From a virus: DNA of 27,163 nt. The stretch spans positions 1 to 27,163 of the IMG/VR virus record IMGVR_UViG_3300035201_000073. The stretch is one strand, 5' to 3'. Position numbers and translations under genes: made by a program. Positions within the stretch are counted from its first letter, which is position 1. The number at the start of each line of letters is the position of its first letter. Shown piece after piece: positions 441 through 16,520 of the stretch. The notes below the pieces were generated by a model. That model did no database searches. It saw only the letters and a list, made by a program, of their open reading frames with translations, and had not been told where the DNA came from.

Positions 441-781
441 TTCTTTTCCCCGATGATCCGATATATCTGTAAGTCATCGTCGTAGGCGACACCGTTGAGA
501 GCGTCTTCTACTGCTTTCAGATAGTTCGTTGCGTCACCACGCAACGGACATTTCTCTGCTTCTAATGAAGTAATCGTAACGACTGTCTCTGTTCCAGTTA
601 GCAGGCAATGCAGTTCTACTGGTCCTTCAAATTTAGGACCTTCGTAGAGACTCTTTATGTGGTCCTCCCGTTCTCTGGTGTTCTTAGGTGTATAGGTACG
701 ACCGCTCTTGGTGAAGCGAGGCCGTCCCTTCACTTTAGGCTTGCCAGGAATGGTGAACGTATAAGAGTCAGGTGGTTGCAT
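437..781 (-). CDS. rusA: RusA-family Holliday junction resolvase
   Basis: This 114-aa protein matches the RusA endodeoxyribonuclease family in length and motif order. It has an N-terminal strand with IPGKPKVKGRPRF, the basic and aromatic signature of RusA, and a C-terminal half with GDATNYLKAVEDALNG followed by the acidic YDDD segment, which supply the conserved metal-binding aspartates. RusA dimers cut four-way junctions symmetrically and in phages resolve recombination or replication intermediates before packaging. The start at 781 overlaps the primase gene end by 14 bases, so it probably depends on coupled translation; only a weak ribosome site is visible. It sits next to primase and helicase genes. 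Confidence 0.93.
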   Translation of the reverse strand: MQPPDSYTFTIPGKPKVKGRPRFTKSGRTYTPKNTREREDHIKSLYEGPKFEGPVELHCLLTGTETVVTITSLEAEKCPLRGDATNYLKAVEDALNGVAYDDDLQIYRIIGEKK

Positions 782-1682
782 CAGCAGCTTTCTGCACTAG
801 GTTCCGTATCTGGGCATCTTGATCGTTACGTTCAGAGAACTTGCCGAGTCGTTGGTCCAGTCGTCGCACCCAATCCACGGTAGCGTCAAACGAATAGCCT
901 TGCCACAATAGGCTAGAAGCAAAGGCATACATCGTTGCTGATCTGTCTTGTGTGTTGAGGTCTTCCCATATCTTTTGGGCTGTCCCTTTGAACCCATCCT
1001 TGGGGCTGAAATCTTTAGATGGTTGTTTCAGCTTAGGTTTGGTTGCTTCGTACAGAGGGAGGAGGGATCTAATTCGCTGAACAGGCGTTCGGGCGTTCCA
1101 TGCTTGCTCCGTGAATGTCGTCACGTTGAGCATTCCTTCTGTATCAGGATCAAAGACTTCGTGTCTGCCTGTGTTCCTTTCGTGTGGGTAGGGGAGTCGT
1201 AAGCAGTTGCCTATTCTGTTGCTTTCAAGGAGTACCTGTTTCGGGTAGACCTCTCTTACGGGTACCTCTACAACCCTGCAAGCTCCGATCATGGCGTTGC
1301 GCCCTATCGAAGCTGAGATTGGTTCTTGGAGGTATACCCATACGTGGTAGCCCTTGCTCTTGGATGTTTCTTTCCAAGCCATAATGTTCTTGGCTTTCAG
1401 CAACCCAATGAGGTTGTCTGCGTGGATGCTGGAGATTTCTCCATCATCCAAGTCCACGGCTAACCAGTTGACGAGCCACACTCCGCTCTTTCTCCAGAGG
1501 GGGTAAACGCCAAGGGCTGGTCCGTCCCCTGTGAGGTGATCGGAGATACGTTCTTCCGTCACTGGACTGTATTCACCATCCTCCTCTAGGAGAGGAACAA
1601 CCCCATTGGATACATTGGCGAGGTGTCCCCCTCCATGGAGGGTGGCAAATTTTTCTTTGGTTACTTTAGTTATTCGACCCAT
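768..1682 (-). CDS. Archaeo-eukaryotic-type primase (TOTE-like AEP domain)
   Basis: This 304-aa protein has the order of motifs of archaeo-eukaryotic primases of the TOTE type: HLTGDG and GVYPL near residues 49-61, the metal-binding DxD of AVDLDDG at D77/D79, KSKGYHVWVYL with the nucleotide-binding His113, and VYPKQ followed by IGNCLRLPYPHE, the counterpart of the family's FPKQ...GNLIALP segment. About 100 residues follow as a C-terminal helical part (DRSATMYAFASSLLWQGYS), comparable to primase C-terminal domains. It likely makes primers or acts as a primase-polymerase for phage DNA. The gene overlaps the helicase gene by 13 bases, giving a primase-helicase pair. No polymerase gene is visible in the window. 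Confidence 0.85.
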   Translation of the reverse strand: MGRITKVTKEKFATLHGGGHLANVSNGVVPLLEEDGEYSPVTEERISDHLTGDGPALGVYPLWRKSGVWLVNWLAVDLDDGEISSIHADNLIGLLKAKNIMAWKETSKSKGYHVWVYLQEPISASIGRNAMIGACRVVEVPVREVYPKQVLLESNRIGNCLRLPYPHERNTGRHEVFDPDTEGMLNVTTFTEQAWNARTPVQRIRSLLPLYEATKPKLKQPSKDFSPKDGFKGTAQKIWEDLNTQDRSATMYAFASSLLWQGYSFDATVDWVRRLDQRLGKFSERNDQDAQIRNLVQKAADATT

Positions 1683-4323: not shown

Positions 4324-4749
4324 TCAAGCATCCGCATTTTCCAAGTACACCGCTGCGTTAAGAAGACGATCTGTTTCCTCCCTCATAAACCCGATACCAC
4401 GGTTGCAGGTGTTGCAAAGCAGTCCCCTTACTTTTCCAGTGAGATGGCAATGGTCCACCACCAATAGTTCGGTGATGGGATGCTCGCTGTCAGTGGACTG
4501 ACAGATAGCACACTTGCCTTCCTGCTCCTCAAACATGCGGCTGTAATCTTCGGGGGTGATCCCGTATCGGTGCAGAGTTTTCTTTCTGCGCCATTCAGGT
4601 CCCCGTTTACGTTCGTATTCACGCATGTCTTGGTTGTGGCAGGTCCGACATCGTGAACGTACGCCGAGTTTACCTGTTGATTGTTTATGAAAATTTGTGA
4701 GTGGCTGAGGGTTATCCTCAGGACAGTCAGAGTTGTAACAGGTTTTCAT
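4324..4749 (-). CDS. Recombination endonuclease VII (HNH/zinc fold)
   Basis: The 141-aa product matches the phage T4 Endonuclease VII family. It has an N-terminal cysteine-rich segment (CYNSDC...CRTCH), the helix GITPEDYSRMFEEQEGKCAICQ typical of the family, the catalytic DHCH motif, and the closing GLLCNTCNRGIGF zinc-binding pair. These enzymes cut branched DNA such as Holliday junctions and mismatches. A second junction resolvase (RusA) lies in the same leftward cluster, so there may be redundancy or division of labour. The start overlaps the upstream stop as ATGA and has a strong GGAGG site. Confidence 0.93.
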   Translation of the reverse strand: MKTCYNSDCPEDNPQPLTNFHKQSTGKLGVRSRCRTCHNQDMREYERKRGPEWRRKKTLHRYGITPEDYSRMFEEQEGKCAICQSTDSEHPITELLVVDHCHLTGKVRGLLCNTCNRGIGFMREETDRLLNAAVYLENADA

Positions 4750-5120
4750 CCGACCTCCGAATCCAACACAGATGCGGTATCCAAAGGACCGATCTTGTTT
4801 ACTCGTTCACGTTTAGCTCTGGTAGTCATGTCATGACTCCGCTGTTTGGACAGTCCGATGTACCTTCCACTTTCAGCAGAGTTGGATGTTTCCAGACTCA
4901 TATCCAGCAGTGCGTGTCTACGTTCGTAGCCTGCTATGTCTCTCCACATGGCTGTATGTCTAGCTGCGTAGTCATAGAAAGATAGACGGTCCTTCACCCT
5001 TCCCATCAAATGTGTTTCCGCACATTCACTTAACATCTGATGAAACTCCTCAGATGGCAGATCGAGTATCTCCTTGAAGATCTCGGATAGGTCAATTTCG
5101 GGTTGGTCATATGATTGCAT
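4746..5120 (-). CDS. Unknown 124-aa protein
   Basis: No family is recognised. The N-terminal half is acidic and helical (EIDLSEIFKEILDLPSEEF), followed by a helix rich in aromatic residues and histidine (FYDYAARHTAMWRDIAGYERRHALL), then a basic stretch (SKQRSHDMTTRAKRERVNK). The start at 5120 overlaps the preceding stop as TAATG behind a GGAGGAG ribosome site, and its end overlaps the Endonuclease VII start as ATGA, so it is translated in series with both neighbours. A role tied to Endonuclease VII is possible but not shown. Confidence 0.8.
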   Translation of the reverse strand: MQSYDQPEIDLSEIFKEILDLPSEEFHQMLSECAETHLMGRVKDRLSFYDYAARHTAMWRDIAGYERRHALLDMSLETSNSAESGRYIGLSKQRSHDMTTRAKRERVNKIGPLDTASVLDSEVG

Positions 5121-6217: not shown

Positions 6218-6414
6218 TCCATTAGCTCACGGGTGATAGGCCAAGGTGCGACCTGACCAACCCCTGCATAATCCAATATCGCTTCATCTTCACCGCATGG
6301 GGAACACACATAAGTGCGGTTATTCATGCGAGATAAAGCATTTATCTCCTCGGGATACAGCATCTCATTGCGTCTGCATCGTGGACACACGTTGTATGTA
6401 CGCATGTTAATCAT
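6202..6414 (-). CDS. Small zinc-ribbon-like protein
   Basis: The 70-aa product starts at ATG 6414 by TAATG overlap, behind GGAG. It has CPRC at residues 10-13 and CSPC about 25 residues later, the four-cysteine pattern of a zinc ribbon, followed by a short acidic and aromatic tail. Such miniature proteins often bind nucleic acid or host polymerase, but nothing here shows a partner. Confidence 0.75.
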   Translation of the reverse strand: MINMRTYNVCPRCRRNEMLYPEEINALSRMNNRTYVCSPCGEDEAILDYAGVGQVAPWPITRELMDWRNL

Positions 6415-6632
6415 TACTCATCTCCTAGTTCGCTGAAGTCAACTTCAGGATCTTCTACAAACATCTGCAGTTTGATCTTGTCTGCATATGTTTCTATGTG
6501 TTCGAGGTCAGCCAGAAGTTGATCGATTCTGGCTCCCTCCTGTTTGTTTAATTGTTTCTTTAACTTCTCCACCTTTCTCAAGGTGAAGACAATGAACGCA
6601 TAAATGCGTCTTTCTAATTCGGTAAAGGCCAT
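6414..6632 (-). CDS. Unknown 72-aa coiled-coil-like protein
   Basis: ATG at 6632 is preceded by an AGGGGGG ribosome site. The product is nearly all helix, with a hydrophobic start (RRIYAFIVFTLRKVEKLKKQL), a heptad-like middle and an acidic end (EVDFSELGDE). It may oligomerise. No family is recognised. It follows the Gp88-family gene by 10 bases. Confidence 0.72.
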   Translation of the reverse strand: MAFTELERRIYAFIVFTLRKVEKLKKQLNKQEGARIDQLLADLEHIETYADKIKLQMFVEDPEVDFSELGDE

Positions 6633-6642
6633 AGCCCCCCCT

Positions 6643-7398
6643 TCACTTGGAGGCTGAGAAACGCACGTTGTTGACGCCCGTTATACACAGCCCACATTCG
6701 AGACAGGCTCCTCGGCCTGTCCGATCTTTATTCCATTTAACCAACGGGACCTTGCCTGTCAGTTCGGGACAGCGTGGCCCTCGCCTCTGGTCAGGGAACG
6801 TCCGAGCCAAAGCTTCGGTCGCTGCCCAACTCTCAGCGGTAAAGGCCAGCTTCACCCATGGGTAAGTCTTACTTGTACGGCGTGCCTGCTTCACGTTGTC
6901 TTTATCTACCGATAGGTAGACGACAAGGTTGTCAGCTTGCAGTCGCCTGATTGCATTGAATGTTCTGGTGTACAACCAGAACTTGACTTGTGGGAATCGT
7001 TGACAGACTCGCCTGACGGCAGTCGCAAACTCAGGTGTCGGGATGTCTCCATCCCAGAACCACCTGAACACCCAGTCCTCTGGCTCACTCCATTTCTGCA
7101 TGTACTTGAACGATTGCTCAACTACGGCATACAAGAGTTCTTCCAGCTTGTCTGGATCGTGCAGGTGAGGCTTGACTAGCTGCCAGTTTCTTTCCAACGC
7201 ATTGCTCATATTTGTGAATATGTTCTCCAACTTGAGTGCATAACACATAGCCTCACAAGTTGGAGTGGACCCCCAGCATGACTTAATTGCTGGGAGTCCA
7301 AACGCATTTGGAACCCTGACATAAGCCTCATTGCCCGTTTCGTATTTGCGCTGCAACACAGGTGCAGTCTTACGATCCGTGCTTAAGTGTAGGTTCAA
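6643..7398 (-). CDS. Mycobacteriophage Gp88-family protein
   Basis: The 251-aa protein matches the phage Gp88 family (named after mycobacteriophage L5 gp88). It shows an N-terminal cysteine group in SCWGSTPTCEAMCYA near residues 40-54, a central FRWFWDGDIPTPEFA segment, the VKFWLYTRT strand typical of the family, and a C-terminal cysteine group with CLECGLC. The cysteine layout suggests a metal or Fe-S centre, but the biochemical role is not established. TTG at 7398 is chosen because a GGGAG site lies six bases upstream. The family is common in actinobacteriophages, which gives a weak host clue. Confidence 0.88.
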   Translation of the reverse strand: MNLHLSTDRKTAPVLQRKYETGNEAYVRVPNAFGLPAIKSCWGSTPTCEAMCYALKLENIFTNMSNALERNWQLVKPHLHDPDKLEELLYAVVEQSFKYMQKWSEPEDWVFRWFWDGDIPTPEFATAVRRVCQRFPQVKFWLYTRTFNAIRRLQADNLVVYLSVDKDNVKQARRTSKTYPWVKLAFTAESWAATEALARTFPDQRRGPRCPELTGKVPLVKWNKDRTGRGACLECGLCITGVNNVRFSASK

Positions 7399-7401
7399 TG
7401 T

Positions 7402-7854
7402 TTACTCCCTTTCTGCAGTATCAAGTTCGATTTTGATAGTTGCATTCCTGAAATGATTGACAAGCTCCTGTCGCATGTCGACCTTCTCAAAGTTCGCTAC
7501 CTTCTGGACTGCCTCGATAAAGGCTTCACCAGTGCTGCAAACATTGTCTCGTGAGATGCGATTGAAGTCCTGCAACAGATGCCTTACGGCTTCAGTCACT
7601 TCGTCCCCCATGTCGCCACTCGCCACAAAGTTCATGCCGTTCACAATGTCATGTACCTGATCGTGGATATCCAGGTCATCGTTGACTATCTCGCTGATGG
7701 TATTGCTGTGATCCCGAAAGAGGTCATACCAGTCGAAGTCGTCAAAGTATCGCGTGACTTCTTCGCTGACAATATTCTCTATGGCTGATCTCAGATCAAC
7801 CTCAAGGGTCAGATATGGACTATTAACTATTTGTACTTCGAGTTCCTCACCCAT
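7402..7854 (-). CDS. Unknown 150-aa acidic helical protein
   Basis: ATG at 7854 is chosen over an upstream start at 7893 because GGGAGAG lies 7 bases before it. The product begins MGEELEVQIVNSPYLTLEVDLRS, then is strongly helical and acidic (FDDFDWYDLF, VNDDLDIHDQVHDIV) with one central cysteine. No family is recognised. A 19-bp palindrome lies 62 bases upstream of the start, so it probably belongs to the same regulon as the four other genes preceded by this site. Confidence 0.8.
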   Translation of the reverse strand: MGEELEVQIVNSPYLTLEVDLRSAIENIVSEEVTRYFDDFDWYDLFRDHSNTISEIVNDDLDIHDQVHDIVNGMNFVASGDMGDEVTEAVRHLLQDFNRISRDNVCSTGEAFIEAVQKVANFEKVDMRQELVNHFRNATIKIELDTAERE

Positions 7855-7911
7855 GGTGATTCTCTCCCTTAATTTGTGATGTTGGCTAGACATCTGAATA
7901 AGCCATGAGGA

Positions 7912-7938
7912 GGTTCGTTACTAAATTAGTAACGAACC
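7912..7938. promoter_or_regulatory. Palindromic operator-like site, copy 1 (27-bp extended palindrome)
   Basis: The 19-bp core CGTTACTAAATTAGTAACG (7916-7934) is extended in this copy to 13+1+13 bases by flanking GGTT and AACC. It lies between the DUF932 stop and the 150-aa gene start. Seven near-identical copies occur in the window. Here the longer stem could also act as a weak terminator. Confidence 0.85.
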
Positions 7939-7947
7939 CCCCGAGTC

Positions 7948-8973
7948 TCATTCAGTAAAGATTCCTACTGGAAGTTCCTCGGCTGCTGGTCCGCTAAGAA
8001 CCAGTTGACGTGCAGCCCTATCGGTAAGTGGCATTGTTCCAAAGAGCAGACGATCAAGGTGCCGTCCTTCTTTAGATCCACCACGCACCTGTTGGACGTG
8101 CTGCTCATATCCCTGTATGGCCATGAGCGCACCCCATTTGGTTTCCCTAACACCGCCATCGAGATCATCGTGGAAGTAGCGAGCAGTGATTGCGTCAAAC
8201 GTCTTGTCATAAGATGTTTGACTCCTGCCCTCATCCTCTGGACGTTCACCCAGAAGACCTCTAGTCAGATCACTAAAGTTACCGACGGTGTAGCTCTCAT
8301 TAATGAGGCGCTCAACTTGTTTATCGAGATGTTGTTGCAGCTTGGCTGCCTCAACAAACGAGTCGATAGCCCATTGCAGATAGCTAGTGGCATGACGAGT
8401 GTGCTTGATAGACCATGAAGCCTTCACACCTAGCACGTAGGCAGAGAATGTGTTTGCACACACCACCACCCCAATGGTTGGACGACCTGAAGCGGCAATC
8501 GTTCCATCATGTGCATCAGTCAACGTGAAGTATTTATGGATATCGCTATAGCCCTCAATCTTGAGAGGCTCACCCATCTCCAGTGTCACGTATGCCTTGC
8601 GACCGTGATTCAGGGTGCCCTTAGACGCAACTCCAGCCGAGAAACCGTGATCTAAAAGTTTCTCTACAGCGGCATCCATCTCATCATATTGAGTGATCCC
8701 CCTGCCTTCTGTTACACCCACATTTAGTGGGAACCCATTGTCGTCACGACGAATGACGAAGCTATTATTTACGTCCCATTCGGAAACAGGTGTGTAGATA
8801 ATCTCCCCGTCAATCATGTCTTGGACATACAGTTCTTGGCGGTTGGCTTGGAATTGCCATGGGTTCTCTGCGTACTCCTCTGCGGAGAGCAGGTGACCAT
8901 AGGTGATCCCTTTACCGTGCCAAGCTGTCTTGGCGTAGACCGCTAGGTCATCGCCATATATTTCAGCAGACAT
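7948..8973 (-). CDS. DUF932 phage/plasmid-like protein
   Basis: ATG at 8973 follows AAAGGAG at five bases and gives 341 aa; an upstream start at 9003 has no such site. The protein matches the DUF932 family (TIGR03299-like), with AWHGKG near residue 18, a long central mixed domain with GVVVCANTFSAY, and the helical SIKHTRHATSYLQWA segment. DUF932 proteins are common in phages and plasmids; their function is not established. The gene is led by a near-consensus promoter (9082-9110) and a palindromic operator-like site (9015-9033), making it the first gene of a regulated unit. Confidence 0.9.
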   Translation of the reverse strand: MSAEIYGDDLAVYAKTAWHGKGITYGHLLSAEEYAENPWQFQANRQELYVQDMIDGEIIYTPVSEWDVNNSFVIRRDDNGFPLNVGVTEGRGITQYDEMDAAVEKLLDHGFSAGVASKGTLNHGRKAYVTLEMGEPLKIEGYSDIHKYFTLTDAHDGTIAASGRPTIGVVVCANTFSAYVLGVKASWSIKHTRHATSYLQWAIDSFVEAAKLQQHLDKQVERLINESYTVGNFSDLTRGLLGERPEDEGRSQTSYDKTFDAITARYFHDDLDGGVRETKWGALMAIQGYEQHVQQVRGGSKEGRHLDRLLFGTMPLTDRAARQLVLSGPAAEELPVGIFTE

Positions 8974-9014
8974 GCTGACTCCTTTTATGTTGTCAATGTG
9001 CATTTGATGCGTCC

Positions 9015-9033
9015 CGTTACTAAATTAGTAACG
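9015..9033. promoter_or_regulatory. Palindromic operator-like site, copy 2
   Basis: Exact 19-bp copy of CGTTACTAAATTAGTAACG, located 42 bases upstream of the DUF932 start and about 40 bases downstream of the start point predicted from the promoter at 9082-9110. A protein bound here could block elongation or initiation of leftward transcription. Confidence 0.85.
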
Positions 9034-9043
9034 AGGCGAATCG

Positions 9044-9095
9044 TGGGATGAAGGGGTATCGAACCCCTCATCAGTAGAACCATTCTATCATCCCA
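9044..9095 (-). other. tRNA-like acceptor/T-arm structure without an anticodon arm
   Basis: Read on the minus strand, an 8-bp stem (TGGGATGA with TCATCCCA) encloses a 19-base insert and a T-arm-like hairpin, AGGGG-TTCGATA-CCCCT, joined directly to the 3' strand as in a real tRNA. The 19-base insert contains TAGAA-TGG-TTCTA and has no room for an anticodon arm. It overlaps the promoter. It could be a tRNA 3'-end mimic, an att core or chance. Confidence 0.45.
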
Positions 9096-9110
9096 TATGG
9101 GTAATGTCAA
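9082..9110 (-). promoter_or_regulatory. Near-consensus sigma-70 promoter for DUF932 unit
   Basis: On the minus strand there is TTGACA (9110-9105), a 17-base gap and TAGAAT (9087-9082). Transcription would start near 9075 and run left into the DUF932 gene. The 11 bases GGGTCCTTGAC around the -35 box recur at the promoter at 11539-11567. Confidence 0.78.
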
Positions 9111-9130
9111 GGACCCACATACCTCATTTG

Positions 9131-9454
9131 TCAACGGCCACAGGACCAGAGGTCCCAGCCCCCTGCTTTCCATATCCGATGAGCCATAGAGGTTGACCCA
9201 TCCACCGTGTACCTACGTGACCACGCACGCTCACCCACAACTTCACGCCACCAATACTCATTCACTTGAAACAAGCCGTGGTCATATCCGTTGTATGCCC
9301 TGGGATTATGCAATGACTCACACCAAGCTATGCCCAAGGCTTCCCCACAGTCCCAGTCGTACATGCATACGACGGGAGCAATCTCTGGGTTGGGTGGCTC
9401 ATGGTTGATCCCTGCGAAGTCAAGGATTGTCCATATGGCTATCCAAAGATTCAT
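9131..9454 (-). CDS. Lysozyme-like transglycosylase, probable endolysin
   Basis: The 107-aa protein has the minimal fold of SLT/goose-type lysozymes: the catalytic Glu46 in ALGIAWCESLHNP, the YDHGLFQVN motif at residues 57-65, and the closing AHRIWKAGGWDLWSCGR segment, which matches the family's AxxIxxxxGWxxWS ending. A hydrophobic N-terminus (LWIAIWTILDFAGI) may help it reach the membrane, though a clear cleavage site is not seen. It likely cuts peptidoglycan at lysis. It is coded in the leftward region rather than with late structural genes; its start overlaps the upstream gene as ATGA. Confidence 0.86.
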   Translation of the reverse strand: MNLWIAIWTILDFAGINHEPPNPEIAPVVCMYDWDCGEALGIAWCESLHNPRAYNGYDHGLFQVNEYWWREVVGERAWSRRYTVDGSTSMAHRIWKAGGWDLWSCGR

Positions 9455-9684
9455 CCACCCGCCCTTTGAACAATGACATCACCATTAGTCAATACAGATA
9501 CTCTTACCTTGATCCCTCTCCTTCTCGCTGCTGCATAAAAAGCTTGACGGAGACTGGATGGTTGACATTCAAAGTCAAAGCCCTTTGTCAGTTTCCATAT
9601 CTGTCCATCAAACCAACTGTCATATGGATAGGTAGGTCCCCTACCCACTGATCTAAAGTTGTAGCTCTCCAATATTTCACTCAT
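9451..9684 (-). CDS. Unknown 77-aa protein
   Basis: The product reads MSEILESYNFRSVGRGP, then FDGQIWKLTKGFDF and a basic helix AFYAAARRRGIKVRV ending in a beta strand (TNGDVIVQRAGG). It resembles short phage proteins of unknown function that pair a beta hairpin with a basic helix. Both ends overlap neighbours as ATGA, so it is translated in series just before the endolysin. Confidence 0.8.
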   Translation of the reverse strand: MSEILESYNFRSVGRGPTYPYDSWFDGQIWKLTKGFDFECQPSSLRQAFYAAARRRGIKVRVSVLTNGDVIVQRAGG

Positions 9685-9926
9685 TCATCCTCCTGTCTTT
9701 GGATCTTGGCATCTAAGCGATGCATCTGTGCTGTCCAAGCCCACGGTCCACAACCCAAGTGTGGAAACGATAAGAGGGCTTGACGTTTAGCGGTCGACTC
9801 AAGGTCCATCCGCCTACGCCGATACATCAGCACCTCACGTCGCCAATGCGATATGTCGGGATTAAGCACGTCAGATATCGACGGCTTCCGATACAGGTCA
9901 AAGCCATCTTTGAGTCTGAATCTCAT
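9681..9926 (-). CDS. Unknown 81-aa basic protein
   Basis: ATG at 9926 is chosen because it overlaps the upstream stop as ATGA; a longer frame from 9968 would sit inside that gene. The product is basic and arginine-rich in the middle (HWRREVLMYRRRRMDLESTAKRQAL) and ends in a charged helix (MHRLDAKIQRQEDE). Nucleic-acid binding is possible. No family is recognised. Confidence 0.75.
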   Translation of the reverse strand: MRFRLKDGFDLYRKPSISDVLNPDISHWRREVLMYRRRRMDLESTAKRQALLSFPHLGCGPWAWTAQMHRLDAKIQRQEDE

Positions 9927-10201
9927 CGTAAAGGGTGATCCTCTCTGTCTGCCCCATACAACATCCACACTGCCTGCGGCAGCTTCAAGTCATATGACAA
10001 GGCATGACACCAGCCGTCATACCCATAGTTGTTGAAGTCCTTGACGGCAACAACGTACGGTGCATTGGGAAACGCACACATATCAGGTGGGCGTTTCACC
10101 AAGATCCTGTACAACCCATCGAAAGGGTCCTCAGGATACATTTTGTCCCTCTCAATGATTGGATAACCATTGGAGGTGATTGGCTTATCGTGTTCCAACA
10201 C
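9923..10201 (-). CDS. Unknown 92-aa protein
   Basis: GTG at 10201 follows a GGGAGAG site and lies inside the last 17 bases of the upstream gene. The product contains YPIIERDKMYPEDPFDGLYRILVKRPP and a central YGYDGWCHALSYDLKLPQAVWMLYG segment, a compact aromatic-rich domain. No family is recognised. Confidence 0.75.
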   Translation of the reverse strand: MLEHDKPITSNGYPIIERDKMYPEDPFDGLYRILVKRPPDMCAFPNAPYVVAVKDFNNYGYDGWCHALSYDLKLPQAVWMLYGADREDHPLR

Positions 10202-10346
10202 AGTCTCTCTCCCATTCTCCAGTGTTTGGATTTATTACTTGCGTGATCCAACCAGTTTTGGTCCGATTGTCACGCTTGGTTACTCGCTGCCATTGGTGGC
10301 GGCGATGTTTCCGCAATTTCTTGCGATTCTGAGCAGTCTTAGACAT
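10185..10346 (-). CDS. Small basic 53-aa protein
   Basis: ATG at 10346 follows a GGGGAGAG site and overlaps the upstream gene by 8 bases. The product is strongly basic (MSKTAQNRKKLRKHRRHQW, then RVTKRDNRTKTG) and ends ERDCVGTR. Tight packing and a good ribosome site support coding. The charge suggests nucleic-acid binding; no family is recognised. Confidence 0.72.
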   Translation of the reverse strand: MSKTAQNRKKLRKHRRHQWQRVTKRDNRTKTGWITQVINPNTGEWERDCVGTR

Positions 10347-10581
10347 TGCTCTCCCCTTCCCTTAAAAGGTCTTGTTCAGCTTCTTTGGACCAGTCGTACG
10401 GTTTCCCGAACTCCGTGCCCATGTACATGACATCCAACATTTCCTGAGTGCGACGCACCCAGTATTCGTGATCTGCCATCTCTTTCTTGTGAGCTTTGTA
10501 TGCCCACATCCCAACGAATACACAAACACACAGAAGTATGAATGCAGCACCCATCGGTGTTATCAAAGGCCATGTATTCAT
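10339..10581 (-). CDS. Single-pass membrane protein, unknown (lysis candidate)
   Basis: ATG at 10581 follows GGAGAGGAGAG. The 80-aa product has one transmembrane segment at about residues 8-28 (TPMGAAFILLCVCVFVGMWAY), followed by a basic KAHKKE and a charged helical tail that ends acidic. One N-terminal membrane segment with a soluble tail is seen in small holin-like or spanin-like proteins, and the endolysin lies about 0.9 kb downstream on the same strand. That link is inference; there is no family match. Confidence 0.78.
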   Translation of the reverse strand: MNTWPLITPMGAAFILLCVCVFVGMWAYKAHKKEMADHEYWVRRTQEMLDVMYMGTEFGKPYDWSKEAEQDLLREGESNV

Positions 10582-10607
10582 GGCTCTCCTCTCCCTAACC
10601 TAGTTAT

Positions 10608-10769
10608 CTAGGCAAGTTCTAATTGGCGGTTCATTTCTCCAAAATGATTATCAAGTTCAGTCAGATACATTTGAGCATCTGCAGGACTCAGGACATCATT
10701 TGCAACTGTACAAATTGCATCGATGATTCCTTTAATGGCATCATCTAATTGCTTTTGAGTTACTTCCAT
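10608..10769 (-). CDS. Unknown 53-aa protein
   Basis: ATG at 10769 is preceded by a near-perfect AAGGAGGT site at six bases. The product is MEVTQKQLDDAIKGIID, then ICTVANDVLSPADAQMYLTELDNHF and a short tail; it is helical and acidic. No family is recognised. It fills what would otherwise be a gap of about 230 bases between the membrane protein and the next gene. Confidence 0.72.
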   Translation of the reverse strand: MEVTQKQLDDAIKGIIDAICTVANDVLSPADAQMYLTELDNHFGEMNRQLELA

Positions 10770-10807
10770 TTTGCGACCTCCTTCCCAAGATCGTCGGATA
10801 GAAATAG

Positions 10808-11059
10808 TTACCAGCCAGACATATGGCCAAACTGTTCGTCAGACCATGCAATGGCATCATTGAATGTTTCAATCTTCTGGATCTTTAACTCATCCATCAG
10901 ATCCGTAGCTCTGACCGCTGCGATACATGATCCATGACGAACCTTGATCGCAACCGTCAGCCCCGAGTAGAACGCTGCACGTTCATTCGGGGTGGCGTTG
11001 GGATTGTCTCTCAAGTCTTGCAACTGGAAACAACCATTCACAAACCAGAACTTCTGCAC
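10808..11059 (-). CDS. Unknown 83-aa protein
   Basis: An AGGGAGGTGAT ribosome site lies six bases before GTG 11059, so this start is preferred to the GTG at 11068, which lies inside the site. The product begins MQKFWFVNGCFQLQDL and continues with a helical domain (ERAAFYSGLTVAIKVRHGSCIAAVRATDLMDEL). No family is recognised. A palindromic operator-like site (11082-11100) lies 23 bases upstream. Confidence 0.78.
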   Translation of the reverse strand: MQKFWFVNGCFQLQDLRDNPNATPNERAAFYSGLTVAIKVRHGSCIAAVRATDLMDELKIQKIETFNDAIAWSDEQFGHMSGW

Positions 11060-11081
11060 TCTAATCACCTCCCTAGTTGTT

Positions 11082-11100
11082 GGTTACTAAATTAGTAACG
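11082..11100. promoter_or_regulatory. Palindromic operator-like site, copy 3
   Basis: The 17-bp core GTTACTAAATTAGTAAC is exact; the first outer base is G instead of C. It lies in the 42-base gap between the 118-aa and 83-aa genes, just before the ribosome site of the latter. Confidence 0.85.
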
Positions 11101-11101
11101 A

Positions 11102-11458
11102 CTACTTTGAGCCAGCCATCAACATGTCTCGCCTAGCCTGCGTCATCTCAGCACTCGTGCAAGGATTGCCAACCGAGTAGAGTTCGACATAGCCCTCGTC
11201 GCTCGTCGCAAGTTCCACGAAGTAGAAACCGTGAAACTCGTCAACAAGCTCGCGGCGAGTCACAAACTTGTATGGCTCAAATTTCCCTGAGTTGAGCGGA
11301 TTACCATTTCCTCTCGCTTCAGGATGAACGATAAAGAATCGTTCATTAGTCTCGAACAGAGTTTGGATTAACTCCCAGTCGCCTTCTGGAAACCTCCAGC
11401 AAGCGAGTGAAAGAATCTCAAGCCCTTCAGAGTTCGAGTTGTTGCTGTAGGGCAACAT
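11102..11458 (-). CDS. Unknown 118-aa protein
   Basis: ATG at 11458 follows GGGGAGAG at four bases. The product contains a run with GLEILSLACWRFPEGDWELI, FFIVHPEARGNGN and FHGFYFVELATSDEGYVELYSVGNPC, giving a mixed alpha-beta fold with a helical basic end (TQARRDMLMAGSK). No family is recognised. It is the first gene after the promoter at 11539-11567 and has the operator-like site at 11479-11497 in its leader. Confidence 0.8.
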   Translation of the reverse strand: MLPYSNNSNSEGLEILSLACWRFPEGDWELIQTLFETNERFFIVHPEARGNGNPLNSGKFEPYKFVTRRELVDEFHGFYFVELATSDEGYVELYSVGNPCTSAEMTQARRDMLMAGSK

Positions 11459-11478
11459 TGCACTCTCCCCTCTCCGCT

Positions 11479-11497
11479 CGTTACTAAATTAGTAACG
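11479..11497. promoter_or_regulatory. Palindromic operator-like site, copy 4
   Basis: Exact copy of CGTTACTAAATTAGTAACG, flanked by CCGC and GCGG. It lies 21 bases before the 118-aa gene and about 35 bases downstream of the predicted transcription start from the promoter at 11539-11567. Confidence 0.85.
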
Positions 11498-11538
11498 AAG
11501 CGGCGACCCGTGAATAGGTCCTCTATCCACTAGTAACC

Positions 11539-11567
11539 ATATTAGCACAGACAGCCCCATAAGTCAA
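11539..11567 (-). promoter_or_regulatory. Strong sigma-70-type leftward promoter
   Basis: On the minus strand there is TTGACT (11567-11562), a 17-base gap and TAATAT (11544-11539). The -35 region lies in an inverted repeat, GTCAAGG-ACC-CCTTGAC (11563-11579), and shares GGGTCCTTGAC with the promoter at 9082-9110. Confidence 0.75.
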
Positions 11568-11612
11568 GGACCCCTTGACCCAACGAACAGCGGCGACGAA
11601 CCACCCACGGCT

Positions 11613-11631
11613 CGTTACTAAATTAGTAACA
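11613..11631. promoter_or_regulatory. Palindromic operator-like site, copy 5
   Basis: The 17-bp core is exact; the last outer base is A instead of G. It lies upstream of the promoter at 11539-11567, not directly before a gene. Confidence 0.83.
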
Positions 11632-11634
11632 GCC

Positions 11635-11727
11635 CATTACTAATCACTATCAGAAAAAGCACACGCCAAACACCACAACACACCCCACGGCAACGCCCCA
11701 CCATTCATTACTAATTCACTATCAGAA
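11635..11727. repeat. Pair of direct repeats with operator half-site
   Basis: CATTACTAATCACTATCAGAA (11635-11655) and the same sequence with one extra T (11706-11727) are two near-identical repeats 71 bases apart. Each begins with TTACTAA, one arm of the 19-bp palindrome, so they may be degenerate sites for the same protein. Confidence 0.7.
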
Positions 11728-11747
11728 TTCGGCACACGAATTCTGAT
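11721..11747. repeat. 10-bp perfect inverted repeat
   Basis: ATCAGAATTC and GAATTCTGAT are separated by the 7-base loop GGCACAC. The left arm overlaps the second direct repeat. It could be a protein site or an origin-type hairpin. Confidence 0.7.
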
Positions 11748-11756
11748 CGCCTACCT

Positions 11757-11775
11757 CGTTACTAAATTAGTAACG
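11757..11775. promoter_or_regulatory. Palindromic operator-like site, copy 6
   Basis: Exact copy of CGTTACTAAATTAGTAACG, 20 bases from the A-run of the terminator of the 240-aa gene. Confidence 0.85.
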
Positions 11776-11794
11776 AGGACCAGCACCAAAAGAT

Positions 11795-11833
11795 AAAAAA
11801 AAATGGGGAGTGAATCTTTCGATCCACTCCCCA
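11795..11833 (-). terminator. Rho-independent terminator of the 240-aa gene
   Basis: On the leftward transcript a 13-bp stem (one G-U pair; arms 11833-11821 and 11816-11804) with a GAAA loop is followed by nine U. It lies about 20 bases after the gene's stop, making that gene a separate transcription unit. Confidence 0.92.
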
Positions 11834-11852
11834 AATTTCAATCAACTACGAC

Positions 11853-12575
11853 CTAGGCCGTAGCCTCAGCAGCTTCCGCCATTGCTACAGCTTCAGCAGC
11901 AGTTTGCGTTGCCCATATCAAATTATGATGGACAGCATCAATACGCTCTGCCAGTTCGTTGACCGCTGCAGGATCAGTAGTAGATCCTTCAACAAGTAGG
12001 CCACAGCTAGTTTCTAGCTGAGATACAGCAGCTTCAAGATCGACGACCGTAGTCGCTGATGCGTTGCCATCAGTAGCACCAGAGCCGCGGCCATTCTTAT
12101 TGCCCCGTGTCTCGTCGGCTTTCTTGAATTGCTGACGTATCTCCTCAGCACGCTCCACAGTTAACCAGAGGGTATTGTCTGCCCGTTTGCGATCCTTCTT
12201 CAGGATCTCAATCACCTCAGCAGTGTTCGACTTCAGAACACCAGAGATAGCGACTAGCGCTCCCTCCGCTTCAGTGATCGGACGTTCCGACAATTTCTCA
12301 CGGTCCAAGAATCCAGACTGGACAAGAATCGCTACGGTCTTACCAGCGGACAAGATCTTGTCTGCTCTGGACTTGGATGGAACATAGACCTTCATTGCTT
12401 CAATGAATGACTGTCTAAATGCACCTTTAGCCTTACGGCCGACAATGCTGTTGTATGTCTCTCCTACTTCAAGGTAGAAGTCGTGCATAAGTCCAGCCAC
12501 GGACTTAGTAGTTGCGTTGTAAGCCTTGGCCAATGACTTACATATTGATGAATAGGTGGAGGACAATCTGCCCAC
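11853..12575 (-). CDS. Unknown 240-aa protein, single-gene unit (regulator candidate)
   Basis: The product has an N-terminal globular part (residues about 1-145, with FRQSFIEAMKVYVPSKSRADKIL and TEAEGALVAISGVLKSNTAEVIEILKKDRKRAD), a Gly/Asn/Ser-rich linker near residues 153-173, and an acidic alanine-rich helical end (AATQTAAEAVAMAEA-type repeats). No family is recognised. It is transcribed alone, stops at a strong terminator and has a palindromic site nine bases before its GTG start, so it may control its own expression and be the protein that binds the palindromes. That is inference from position. A TTG start at 12566 is also possible. Confidence 0.82.
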   Translation of the reverse strand: MGRLSSTYSSICKSLAKAYNATTKSVAGLMHDFYLEVGETYNSIVGRKAKGAFRQSFIEAMKVYVPSKSRADKILSAGKTVAILVQSGFLDREKLSERPITEAEGALVAISGVLKSNTAEVIEILKKDRKRADNTLWLTVERAEEIRQQFKKADETRGNKNGRGSGATDGNASATTVVDLEAAVSQLETSCGLLVEGSTTDPAAVNELAERIDAVHHNLIWATQTAAEAVAMAEAAEATA

Positions 12576-12583
12576 ACTCCCTC

Positions 12584-12602
12584 TGTTACTAAATTAGTCA
12601 CG
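12584..12602. promoter_or_regulatory. Palindromic operator-like site, copy 7 (imperfect)
   Basis: TGTTACTAAATTAGTCACG differs from the 19-bp consensus at two positions. It lies nine bases upstream of the 240-aa gene start, so a bound protein would cover its ribosome site or promoter exit. Confidence 0.8.
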
Positions 12603-12980: not shown

Positions 12981-12992
12981 TAGGGAAAGGGT

Positions 12993-13035
12993 GGGGGGGA
13001 TGGGGAAACCCTTGGGGGGTTTCCCCATCCCCCCC
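12993..13035. repeat. 19-bp perfect G/C-rich hairpin before the late genes
   Basis: The arms 12993-13011 (seven G, AT, four G, AAACCC) and 13017-13035 are fully complementary with a TTGGG loop. No U-run follows on either strand. It sits 70 bases before the small terminase gene, where it could block read-through in either direction, shape the late mRNA leader or belong to a packaging site. Confidence 0.88.
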
Positions 13036-13105
13036 CCAACACTAAACCCATGTTGTCCCACATTCCCACACGGGACAACTAAACTTTCCATATAGGAGGA
13101 TTAAT

Positions 13106-14070: not shown

Positions 14071-14352
14071 GTGTCGATAGAAGATGTAGCAGAACGGGCT
14101 GATGTTTGGTCTGAGGCTATTAAAAAGATTGTTAAGGCCATTACAGCGGCTGGCGTTGCGTTGGCGGCAGCGATTGGTGGATTACTTATGTGGTGGCCCT
14201 TTGGCGTGAGTGAGCCTGAGGAGCCGATTGGGTTGATTGATGGTGCAGGTTATGGGGCGCAATGCAGTCAGTTGTATAGCGCTATAGATATCACTTGGAC
14301 GGAGCAACAGTGGTCTGTTTGGGAGCAGTTGAAGAAAGATATGGGTTGCTAA
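14071..14352 (+). CDS. Single-pass membrane protein, unknown
   Basis: GTG at 14071 follows a GGGGG site. The 93-aa product has an acidic amphipathic N-terminus, one transmembrane segment at residues about 22-44 (KAITAAGVALAAAIGGLLMWWPF), then a short acidic linker and a C-terminal domain with two cysteines (AQCSQLYSAIDITWTEQQW and the terminal Cys). A holin-like role is possible but untested. Its stop overlaps the oxygenase stop on the other strand by four bases. Confidence 0.78.
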   Translation: MSIEDVAERADVWSEAIKKIVKAITAAGVALAAAIGGLLMWWPFGVSEPEEPIGLIDGAGYGAQCSQLYSAIDITWTEQQWSVWEQLKKDMGC

Positions 14353-14963
14353 CGGAAGGGGTACCCGTTGTACCACATGACTGCGCTGTGGCGTTCACCA
14401 CTGGTAACTGGTGTTACTCTGTGGTCCATGAAACTTGGGAATACTGCTATTGATCCTCGTTCTGCGTCGTTGAAACGATGAAGTTTGTCGTAGCAGCGAA
14501 TCTGGAATTCGCCGCCTTCGTAGTCGGAAGAATGCGAAAGGTTGACTGTTGCTGAGAGTTTACGCACGGTTCCCTGTAGCTCTGGGAACGGGGTCAGGTT
14601 CAGGGGAATCGGGTCAGGGATCTGACTGGAAGGAAGAAGTCTGCGAGCAGCGTGGTTGTCGGAGTTGCCGTCAATGTGCCAGTCGTAGTATCCGTCTACG
14701 CTGTAGCGTGTATATTGGAGAGCTTCTGGTTTATGTAAGTCAAACGACCAGCCTGCTTCTTTGTTTGCTTGCCGAATCCAGGCTGAAACTAGATCGTTTA
14801 TTTTTTCGTTATAGATCCAAGAAATTTGGGATTTCCGATGTTCTTCGGATTGTCCGAAATGGATTCCTTCAATTTGTTGTTCCAAGGCCGCGGCGTGTTG
14901 AATCTCGTCGCATTGCTGTGGGGTTAAAGCCTCTGGAATCCACCAGTAATGATTGGTAAGCAC
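14349..14963 (-). CDS. 2OG-Fe(II) oxygenase, prolyl-hydroxylase-like
   Basis: The 204-aa protein has the full iron and 2-oxoglutarate site: His96-x-Asp98 in YYDWHIDGN, His181 in SFMDHRVTPV and Arg191 in GERHSAVMWYNG, in a double-stranded beta-helix context with LSATVNLSHSSDYEGGEF. It resembles the PKHD-type hydroxylases found in many marine phages. The substrate is unknown; a protein or a nucleic acid base is possible. It is the only minus-strand gene inside the rightward late block, and its GTG start abuts the terminase start, so it probably has its own regulation and behaves like an added moron gene. Confidence 0.9.
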   Translation of the reverse strand: MLTNHYWWIPEALTPQQCDEIQHAAALEQQIEGIHFGQSEEHRKSQISWIYNEKINDLVSAWIRQANKEAGWSFDLHKPEALQYTRYSVDGYYDWHIDGNSDNHAARRLLPSSQIPDPIPLNLTPFPELQGTVRKLSATVNLSHSSDYEGGEFQIRCYDKLHRFNDAERGSIAVFPSFMDHRVTPVTSGERHSAVMWYNGYPFR

Positions 14964-14964
14964 T

Positions 14965-15849
14965 ATGTCTAGGCTAGCAGAACTACGTCAGGAAGCTGAA
15001 TGGAGAAAGTGTGTACGGGATGAAAAACATTTTTTACAAAACTATTGGTACATTGCTCACCCTGCTCACGGTCGTATTCTTTTTGCTTTACGTGAGGCTC
15101 AGGCGGAAGCTATCGACCATTGGGAAAAGAATAGATATTCGCTTACCTTAAAGGCACGCCAGATTGGGTGGAGCACCCTAGTGGCTGCTCACCAGTTTTG
15201 GTTAGCATTTTTTCATCCAGATCAGAACATCATTGATTTGAGTCGTACAGAACGAGAAGCTGTGTTGTTGCTGCGTAAAACCAAGTACGGATTTCAGCAT
15301 TTACCGAAATGGATGATAGAGCGTGGACCTAAGTCTTTGGTTGAGCATCAACAACGAATGGGATTCGACAACGGAAGCCAGGTTACGTCGATGCCTTCTG
15401 CTTCAGATCCTGCCCGTGGCGAATCAGCGACACTTATCGTGGTTGACGAGTGGGCATTCTTACCGAATGCGGAAGAAGCATGGGCGAGTATCGAACCTGT
15501 AGCTGACGTAGGTGGCCGAATTATCGGCCTTTCTACTGCTAATGGTTCAGGGAACTTTTATCACCAGTTGTGGGTTGGGGCTACTACAGGGTCAAATAAG
15601 TTTGAGCCTATGTTTTATCCGTGGTCTGCTACCGAAGATAGGGGGGAGTCATGGTACATGGAGAAAGTGGAATCCATGTTGCCTTGGCAGCTTGCACAGG
15701 AGTATCCGACTACGCCTGAAGAGGCTTTCGTTAAGTCAGGTAACCCTGTGTTTGATTTAGATATTCTTGATGCCATGGAACGTACGGTAACTCACGGCGA
15801 AGTTGGCTACATGTTTAAGGGACCTGGGATTTTGGAGTTTCGTTCGTAA
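14965..15849 (+). CDS. terL: Terminase large subunit, ATPase part (separate gene)
   Basis: This 294-aa protein is the N-terminal motor of the packaging terminase. It shows a Walker A-like KARQIGWST at residues 63-71, a Walker B LIVVDE at 157-162 with the following WAFLPNAEEAW, and the coupling motif region GLSTANGSG. It ends at a TAA just after ILEFRS, where homologues continue straight into the nuclease domain. ATG 14965 is preferred to an in-frame TTG at 14953, which would overlap the oxygenase gene. The next gene starts on this stop (TAATG) in the -1 frame. Confidence 0.9.
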   Translation: MSRLAELRQEAEWRKCVRDEKHFLQNYWYIAHPAHGRILFALREAQAEAIDHWEKNRYSLTLKARQIGWSTLVAAHQFWLAFFHPDQNIIDLSRTEREAVLLLRKTKYGFQHLPKWMIERGPKSLVEHQQRMGFDNGSQVTSMPSASDPARGESATLIVVDEWAFLPNAEEAWASIEPVADVGGRIIGLSTANGSGNFYHQLWVGATTGSNKFEPMFYPWSATEDRGESWYMEKVESMLPWQLAQEYPTTPEEAFVKSGNPVFDLDILDAMERTVTHGEVGYMFKGPGILEFRS

Positions 15850-16520
15850 TGGCTTTAGAAGTTTGGGAACGACCAGGACCTCGTAGTGCCTATGTGATGG
15901 GTGTTGATACGGCTGAGGGGTTGAAACATGGGGATTACAGTGTTATTCAGGTGTTAAATGTGGGTTCAGGGAATCAGGCAGCTATTTGGCATGGGCACAT
16001 CGCACCTGATTTGTTGGCTGATGAGGTAGATAACATTGGCCGTTGGTTTAACCAAGCTTTGTGTTGTGTGGAATCAAATAACCATGGGCTTACAACGATC
16101 ACCGAGTTGCGGCATTTGGGATATCCGACATTGTTTCGTAAGCGTTCTTTGAACAATGTGAATAACAGGATCGGGCAAGAGTATGGTTGGAAGACTACTC
16201 GTACGTCTAAACCTTTGATGATTGATGATCTGAGTTCGGCTTTACGGAACGAGGAGTTGATTATTCGGGATCGCCATACTTTAGCGGAATTGCGAACTTA
16301 TGTTCGTAACGACAGGGGCAGTATGGGTGGTTCTCCGTACGATGACCGTGTGATGGCGTTAGCTTTGGCTAATCAGATGCGTAAATATGCTCACGAACCT
16401 GAATACAAAGTAGAAATTAACGACTATTGGACAGTTGACTGGTTTGCTCGGATGATAACTAATCAACCTGAAGGTTCGTCAACTCGGATAGGTTCTACTA
16501 CTGTTCGTGGGACACACTAA
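15849..16520 (+). CDS. terL: Terminase large subunit, nuclease part (separate gene)
   Basis: The 223-aa product is the RNase H-like nuclease half of a large terminase. Acidic catalytic residues are at Asp20 (GVDTAEG), Glu75 (CVESNNHG) and Asp165/Asp166 (YDDRVMALALA). It begins MALEVWERPGPRSAYV, the segment that joins ATPase and nuclease in single-chain relatives. The start codon shares bases with the ATPase stop and has a distant GGAG. Together the two products total 517 aa, a normal large terminase length, so no residues appear lost. Confidence 0.88.
   Translation: MALEVWERPGPRSAYVMGVDTAEGLKHGDYSVIQVLNVGSGNQAAIWHGHIAPDLLADEVDNIGRWFNQALCCVESNNHGLTTITELRHLGYPTLFRKRSLNNVNNRIGQEYGWKTTRTSKPLMIDDLSSALRNEELIIRDRHTLAELRTYVRNDRGSMGGSPYDDRVMALALANQMRKYAHEPEYKVEINDYWTVDWFARMITNQPEGSSTRIGSTTVRGTH

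Follow-up and report, generated by a model that had tools for sequence, protein, structure and literature searches.

Concerted change of a dispersed palindrome and its neighbouring gene suggests a multi-site operator regulon in an uncultured podovirus-like phage

What function is served by a short palindrome that recurs through the early region of an uncultured virus, and which protein, if any, recognises it? The question is raised by IMG/VR record IMGVR_UViG_3300035201_000073, positions 1 to 27,163 of which were analysed (hereafter the window, 27,163 nucleotides), and which contains seven copies of the 19-bp palindrome CGTTACTAAATTAGTAACG. An initial annotation had taken these copies for dispersed operators of a phage regulon and had proposed the 240-amino-acid product of the gene at 11853-12575 (minus strand) as the first candidate for the cognate protein. 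Our analysis favours a regulon with operators at several sites and a co-varying protein that is predicted to bind DNA, probably regulates its own gene and falls outside recognised families, a reading to which we assign a probability of about 0.68. The regulon is real, and it is of an ordinary kind with unusual detail.

The seven copies lie where the initial annotation had placed them and have 0, 0, 1, 0, 1, 0 and 2 mismatches in coordinate order, in agreement with its count of four exact copies and three with one or two changes; 100 dinucleotide shuffles gave no match at up to three mismatches. The 17-mer GTTACTAAATTAGTAAC is exact at six of the seven sites and carries one change at 12584. The palindrome has 8-bp arms and an asymmetric AAT centre, and its orientation is identical in all seven copies, which together span 7916-12602 in the leftward early region. 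As had been claimed, the window's replication module and its late genes are free of copies. Five copies precede gene starts, at 9 to 62 bp upstream and outside the Shine-Dalgarno sequence, and two lie in the non-coding stretch at 11.5-11.85 kb. This division was borne out, but one of the distances was not: the conserved DUF932 start (MSAEIY) is at about 8973, so the copy at 9015 lies about 42 bp upstream of it, not 12. An exact scan of IMG/VR for the 17-mer returned 24 stretches. Nine of the 10 contigs inspected were single-copy, and the only multi-copy one, G001, is a close relative; the others look like chance matches and were rejected as regulon carriers.

Dispersed operators are the reading that agrees best with the relatives, which were gathered through DUF932 and the portal protein (portal relatives are encoded in about 200 IMG/VR stretches); a direct IMG/VR search with the 240-amino-acid protein gave none. 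The window portal, capsid and helicase are 42%, 35% and 27% identical, respectively, to those of an uncultured podovirus from Manatee Spring (MW202803) and show hardly any similarity to cultured phages, and the conserved backbone proteins of the DUF932-relative contigs are mostly 75-96% identical. Repeat searches showed that each relative has its own repeated palindrome of the same build, with 7- to 8-bp arms and a 3- to 4-bp centre, at about 4 to 11 sites per genome in this phage group. At least six types were found. The window type, GTTACTA-AAT-TAGTAAC, is present in the window, G001 and L160 and at one site in G039; type B, ACTTACTG-GAA-CAGTAAGT, is carried by G011 and G036; CGACCTAG-N4-CTAGGTCG occurs in G035 and G015, GAAATATA-N3-TATATTTC in G037 and TTTCTAAC-N3-GTTAGAAA in G038. 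Among more distant relatives, ACGCA-N4-TGCGT is found in L078, L079 and L159, and GGTGGTAAACGTTTACCACC in G021.

The places of these sites are old, and their sequences are not. The DUF932 gene is bordered by sites 1 and 2 in the window and in G001, G011, G036, G035, G015 and G037, in surroundings that can be aligned; at both ends of this gene the place is kept within an 81.5%-identical stretch while the palindrome sequence differs. Between types, the palindrome differs at all sites that a genome carries. An absence of the sites from close relatives had been named as an outcome that would speak against a regulon; the places are in fact kept, and the sequences have been replaced in concert rather than lost. 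Such replacement needs either a trans-acting factor or homogenisation of repeats, and for palindromes at gene starts a trans-acting factor is the more natural option. A mobile or selfish hairpin repeat of the repetitive extragenic palindrome kind, spread inside each genome, would account for the many near-identical copies per genome and for their turnover between relatives. This explanation is highly improbable, since homologous places carry different palindromes in relatives, the arms are invariant while the centres vary, and no transposase was recognised among the genes examined.

Which gene changes with the palindrome? Each window gene was compared across close relatives grouped by palindrome type, and where a window gene offered several same-type pairs, complete separation of the types was seen for 11853-12575 and 6414-6632 alone. 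Within a type, the 240-amino-acid protein is 82% identical between the window and L160 and 76% between G011 and G036; between types identity falls to 22-27%, and the adjoining TerS is 91-98% identical throughout. Homology between the window and G011 (7171-7935) regulators is still detectable (BLASTP E about 1e-5), and the open reading frames (ORFs) at the same position in G035 and G038, of 250 and 244 amino acids, show no detectable similarity to the window protein. Profile comparison likewise found no detectable relation between the window and L078 regulator families. The versions appear to share a layout: an N-terminal region is joined to a C-terminal one, which often ends in ATA, and several versions have between them a linker rich in Gly, Lys and Asn. 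The regulators of L159 and L078 share 84% identity, and one and the same symmetric C-to-T change is seen at each of the three L159 sites. Like a general palindromic operator beside an autoregulated gene, the palindrome stands directly upstream of the regulator gene at 10 of 11 loci (window, L160, G011, G036, G035, G038, G021, L078, L079 and L159); L060 is the lone exception. To judge from this joint change of gene and palindrome type, the 240-amino-acid protein remains the leading candidate for the cognate regulator.

L160 (PAYF01000019.1) offers a natural exchange. From G011 position 7984 it is 95.4% identical over 12,067 bp to G011, a type B phage, and this identity begins 4 bp past the G011 operator at 7962-7980. 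Beyond the junction, the L160 regulator is 81-82% identical to that of the window, and both L160 palindromes (at 112 and 928) are of the window type; the regulator match was found first and the palindromes were sought afterwards. L160 is a close relative (portal 95%) whose contig is binned in a Euryarchaeota metagenome-assembled genome, which could be a host hint or misbinning.

The 72-amino-acid product of 6414-6632 (minus strand) is a second candidate for the cognate protein. It is 92-97% identical within types and at most 85% between them, a less steep separation than that of the 240-amino-acid protein, and G037 and G038 have similar versions despite different palindromes; it may be a partner or antagonist of the regulator. 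The 124-amino-acid gene at 4746-5120 (minus strand) encodes a protein with a helix-turn-helix (HTH)-like segment and weak similarity to the PhyR sigma-like domain (E 0.014, below the cut-off). It was rejected as the cognate gene: its putative recognition segment hardly differs between types, the same-type pair G035/G015 is only 56% identical there, and the different-type pair G035/G036 is near-identical. A palindrome copy lies beside its homologue in G037 and G038.

Several observations weigh against an operator regulon governed by the product of 11853-12575. The protein has no HTH or other DNA-binding family match in Pfam, PHROGs or NCBIfam; its AlphaFold model is all-helical and weak (predicted local distance difference test score, pLDDT, 62) and gave no fold match in the PDB. 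The regulator gene is missing from the G001, G015, G037 and G039 contigs, and the 72-amino-acid gene also follows palindrome type. The L160 exchange covers just the two sites adjoining the regulator, where the contig ends, and these would move with the gene anyway. Finally, sequence flanking the arms tends to extend the pairing, at a mean of -9.5 kcal/mol, vs -6.2 kcal/mol for permuted flanks (0 of 5000 permutations), and a plain DNA operator would not need such complementarity. With regard to the protein, a model of pLDDT 62 is too weak either for claiming a new fold or for excluding an HTH; that of the L078 regulator (pLDDT 43) was too poor for use, and family and PDB sequence searches with regulators of all types gave nothing usable. 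It is also possible, given the small number of genomes, that a gene tracks type through shared ancestry of its genome segment.

The flanking complementarity raises the alternative that the palindromes are RNA elements, that is, hairpins in the leftward transcripts that either are recognised by a phage protein co-varying with them, on the pattern of N/nut antitermination, or control translation or RNA ends. Consistent with this suggestion, the pairing is site specific at many sites and is still present when the DUF932-end site is left out, copy 1 sits within a 16-bp stem whose outer sequence is different in each relative, some copies in L078 and L079 cap terminators with a U-tract, and several copies stand immediately before Shine-Dalgarno sequences. 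However, the pairing is uneven. Copies at 7916, 11479 and 11757 form the tips of long hairpins, but a clear second class lacks flank pairing altogether: 11082, 12584 (which stands upstream of the regulator and folds poorly), and the triple arrays of L078 and L079, in which three copies are spaced 67-70 bp apart between the regulator and TerS. Moreover, the stem is constant and the loop varies, with both orientations of the centre in G011, G036 and G037, whereas RNA-protein recognition usually shows the opposite pattern, and changes in the arms are more often one-sided than compensated (11 one-sided vs 5 paired). Rfam identified no RNA family at the palindrome sites. Constant arms, two-way variable centres and triple arrays without flank pairing fit a DNA-binding dimer, and we therefore regard a purely RNA-level element as unlikely. 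We read the sites as DNA operators, some of them built into terminator-like hairpins; the initial proposal of dispersed operators thus stands, with the amendment that an RNA or terminator role may coexist at the hairpin-tip copies.

The sites lie where operators and roadblock sites are expected, among genes and signals that are all on the minus strand. Copy 1 (7916-7934), at the tip of its long hairpin, lies between the stop of the DUF932 gene (7948-9003) and the next gene start (about 7854, the conserved start within a 163-amino-acid ORF at 7402-7893), and copy 2 (9015-9033) lies on the other flank of DUF932. A sigma-70-like promoter for the DUF932 transcript (9082-9110, TTGACA-17-TAGAAT) is conserved in relatives, and G037 has a comparable promoter although the sequence in between differs; the palindrome stands roughly 30-50 bp downstream of its -10 box (about 49 bp for copy 2). 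Copy 3 (11082-11100), without an extended hairpin, is 14 bp upstream of the 86-amino-acid gene at 10808-11068, and copy 4 (11479-11497), with one, is 21 bp upstream of the 118-amino-acid gene at 11102-11458. Upstream of copy 4 is a weaker promoter-like sequence match (11539-11567, TTGACT-17-TAATAT). The number of promoter-like matches in the window is not above that in shuffles, and only 9082-9110 is backed by conservation. An intrinsic terminator (11804-11833; 13-bp stem, then nine T) follows the regulator gene, which is therefore probably its own transcription unit; copy 5 (11613-11631) lies in the non-coding region between this terminator and gene 11102-11458, and copy 6 (11757-11775) directly past the terminator, with an extended hairpin. 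Copy 7 (12584-12602), whose extended hairpin is not convincing, is the presumed autoregulatory operator upstream of the candidate regulator gene. That gene encodes 240 amino acids from GTG, but the TTG at 12566 (237 amino acids) is the more likely start because the GTG is out of frame in L160.

Two further elements occur in these intervals. The sequence CATTACTAAT(T)CACTATCAGAA is present twice in the non-coding region (11634-11655 and 11703-11727), resembles palindrome half-sites and has one copy in L160. At 9042-9098 (minus strand) is a tRNA-like element without an anticodon arm, comprising a 7-bp acceptor-like stem and a canonical T-arm with a TTCGATA loop, then A-CGA. In five relatives 97% of its cells are paired, and three pairs are changed on both sides, although the sequences are few. 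The element and the -10 box of the DUF932 promoter overlap, G037 lacks the element, and ARAGORN called no tRNA for it.

Equal palindromes clustered around one gene for a helical protein also recall partition. The phage-plasmid N15 has dispersed centromere-like partition sites, and the palindromes could likewise be centromere-like sites for a ParB-like protein of a phage-plasmid; no integrase-like ORF was noticed in the ORF list of the 38-kb relative G015, which would suit this explanation. The sites are, however, tied to gene starts and a promoter, the regulator has no ParB family match, and no ParA-like gene was recognised among the genes examined, although no complete genome was searched. 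We consider partition very unlikely.

In the operator regulon that we favour, the product of 11853-12575 would most likely bind the palindromes as a dimer, each subunit taking one arm. At 12584 the bound protein would repress the gene that encodes it, and perhaps the divergent late side as well; at sites shortly after early promoters or between the genes of the leftward operon, it would block initiation or stall RNA polymerase. Regulator and site sequence would evolve together, giving mutually foreign regulator/operator pairs among closely similar phages, as in immunity groups, and immunity might be the outcome. A bolder version is an immunity-like switch with a fast-evolving regulator, in which the operator palindrome doubles as the tip of an RNA hairpin, stops RNA polymerase in two forms, bound DNA and folded RNA, and is re-coded at all sites with the regulator; this we put forward as a tentative possibility.

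The initial annotation had likened the sites to mycobacteriophage stoperators of a different, symmetric sequence. In cluster A mycobacteriophages such as L5, one phage has many identical sites in short intergenic gaps, and the repressor gene and the site consensus change in step from one subcluster to the next, producing heteroimmunity (PMC6550527). The L5 repressor is a monomeric two-domain protein (an HTH and a stoperator domain) acting at 20-30 asymmetric 13-bp sites oriented with transcription (PMC9283540). Here too, the site consensus co-varies with the regulator, so the concept holds, but several defining features of the L5 system are absent. The window sites are inverted repeats with 7- to 8-bp arms, seven in a 27-kb, possibly incomplete contig and in the early region only, vs 20-30 genome-wide; their orientation is uniform in the window, yet the centre flips in G011, G036 and G037. 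No HTH match was found, although the model is too weak to exclude one, and the present phages are podovirus-like. The system thus works like the L5 repressor and stoperators in outline and is not a member of that class: symmetry, orientation and number differ. Cluster K mycobacteriophages carry repeats immediately before a subset of gene starts: start-associated sequences (SAS), which are asymmetric 13-bp sequences at the translation start with no cognate gene known, and extended SAS (ESAS), which include inverted repeats with 17-bp arms that differ between subclusters (PMC3203893). The likeness is confined to a position near gene starts; the window sites differ in sequence and symmetry from the GGGATAGGAGCCC-type repeat of the translation start, and they stand 9 to 62 bp before starts. 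In lambdoid immunity regions (cI/Cro), the operators are palindromic and adjoin a regulator gene that is autoregulated and exchangeable. The present sites likewise adjoin an exchangeable, presumably autoregulated gene, but they occur between operon genes over a span of 4.7 kb and switch type jointly, and no cI/Cro-like protein was recognised here. Text searches of an open-access library turned up no account of this palindrome system.

Other features of the window touch its late and replication genes. TerS is preceded, at a distance of about 70-100 bp, by a strong GC-rich perfect hairpin (12990-13040); hairpins that differ in sequence but have a similar loop (TTGGGG/TGGGG) are found at -93 to -103 in G011, L060, L078 and L079 and in a like place in L160, and this is possibly a packaging or late-control site. 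Weak Rfam matches to microRNAs at 12.99 kb were dismissed as chance hits on this GC hairpin. The large terminase is apparently split into two ORFs (14953-15849 and 15849-16520, plus strand), which is unlikely to be a sequencing error because the same split is shared by G015 and G021, and conservation in G011 and L160 extends to each half. At 14349-14963 (minus strand), a leftward gene among rightward late genes, 66-90% conserved in relatives, encodes a product that by eye resembles a 2-oxoglutarate-Fe(II) oxygenase, and 768-1682 (minus strand) encodes a primase of the archaeo-eukaryotic type, as in TOTE conflict systems (PF22548, E 3e-17).

Overall, these phages appear to provide a regulator family that lacks any recognised domain and whose target sequences can be deduced directly from genomes. 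Because closely similar members of the set differ in one regulator and its sites, two questions become testable: how the specificity of a regulator and all of its dispersed sites can change with no non-functional intermediate, and whether these uncultured phages fall into immunity groups.

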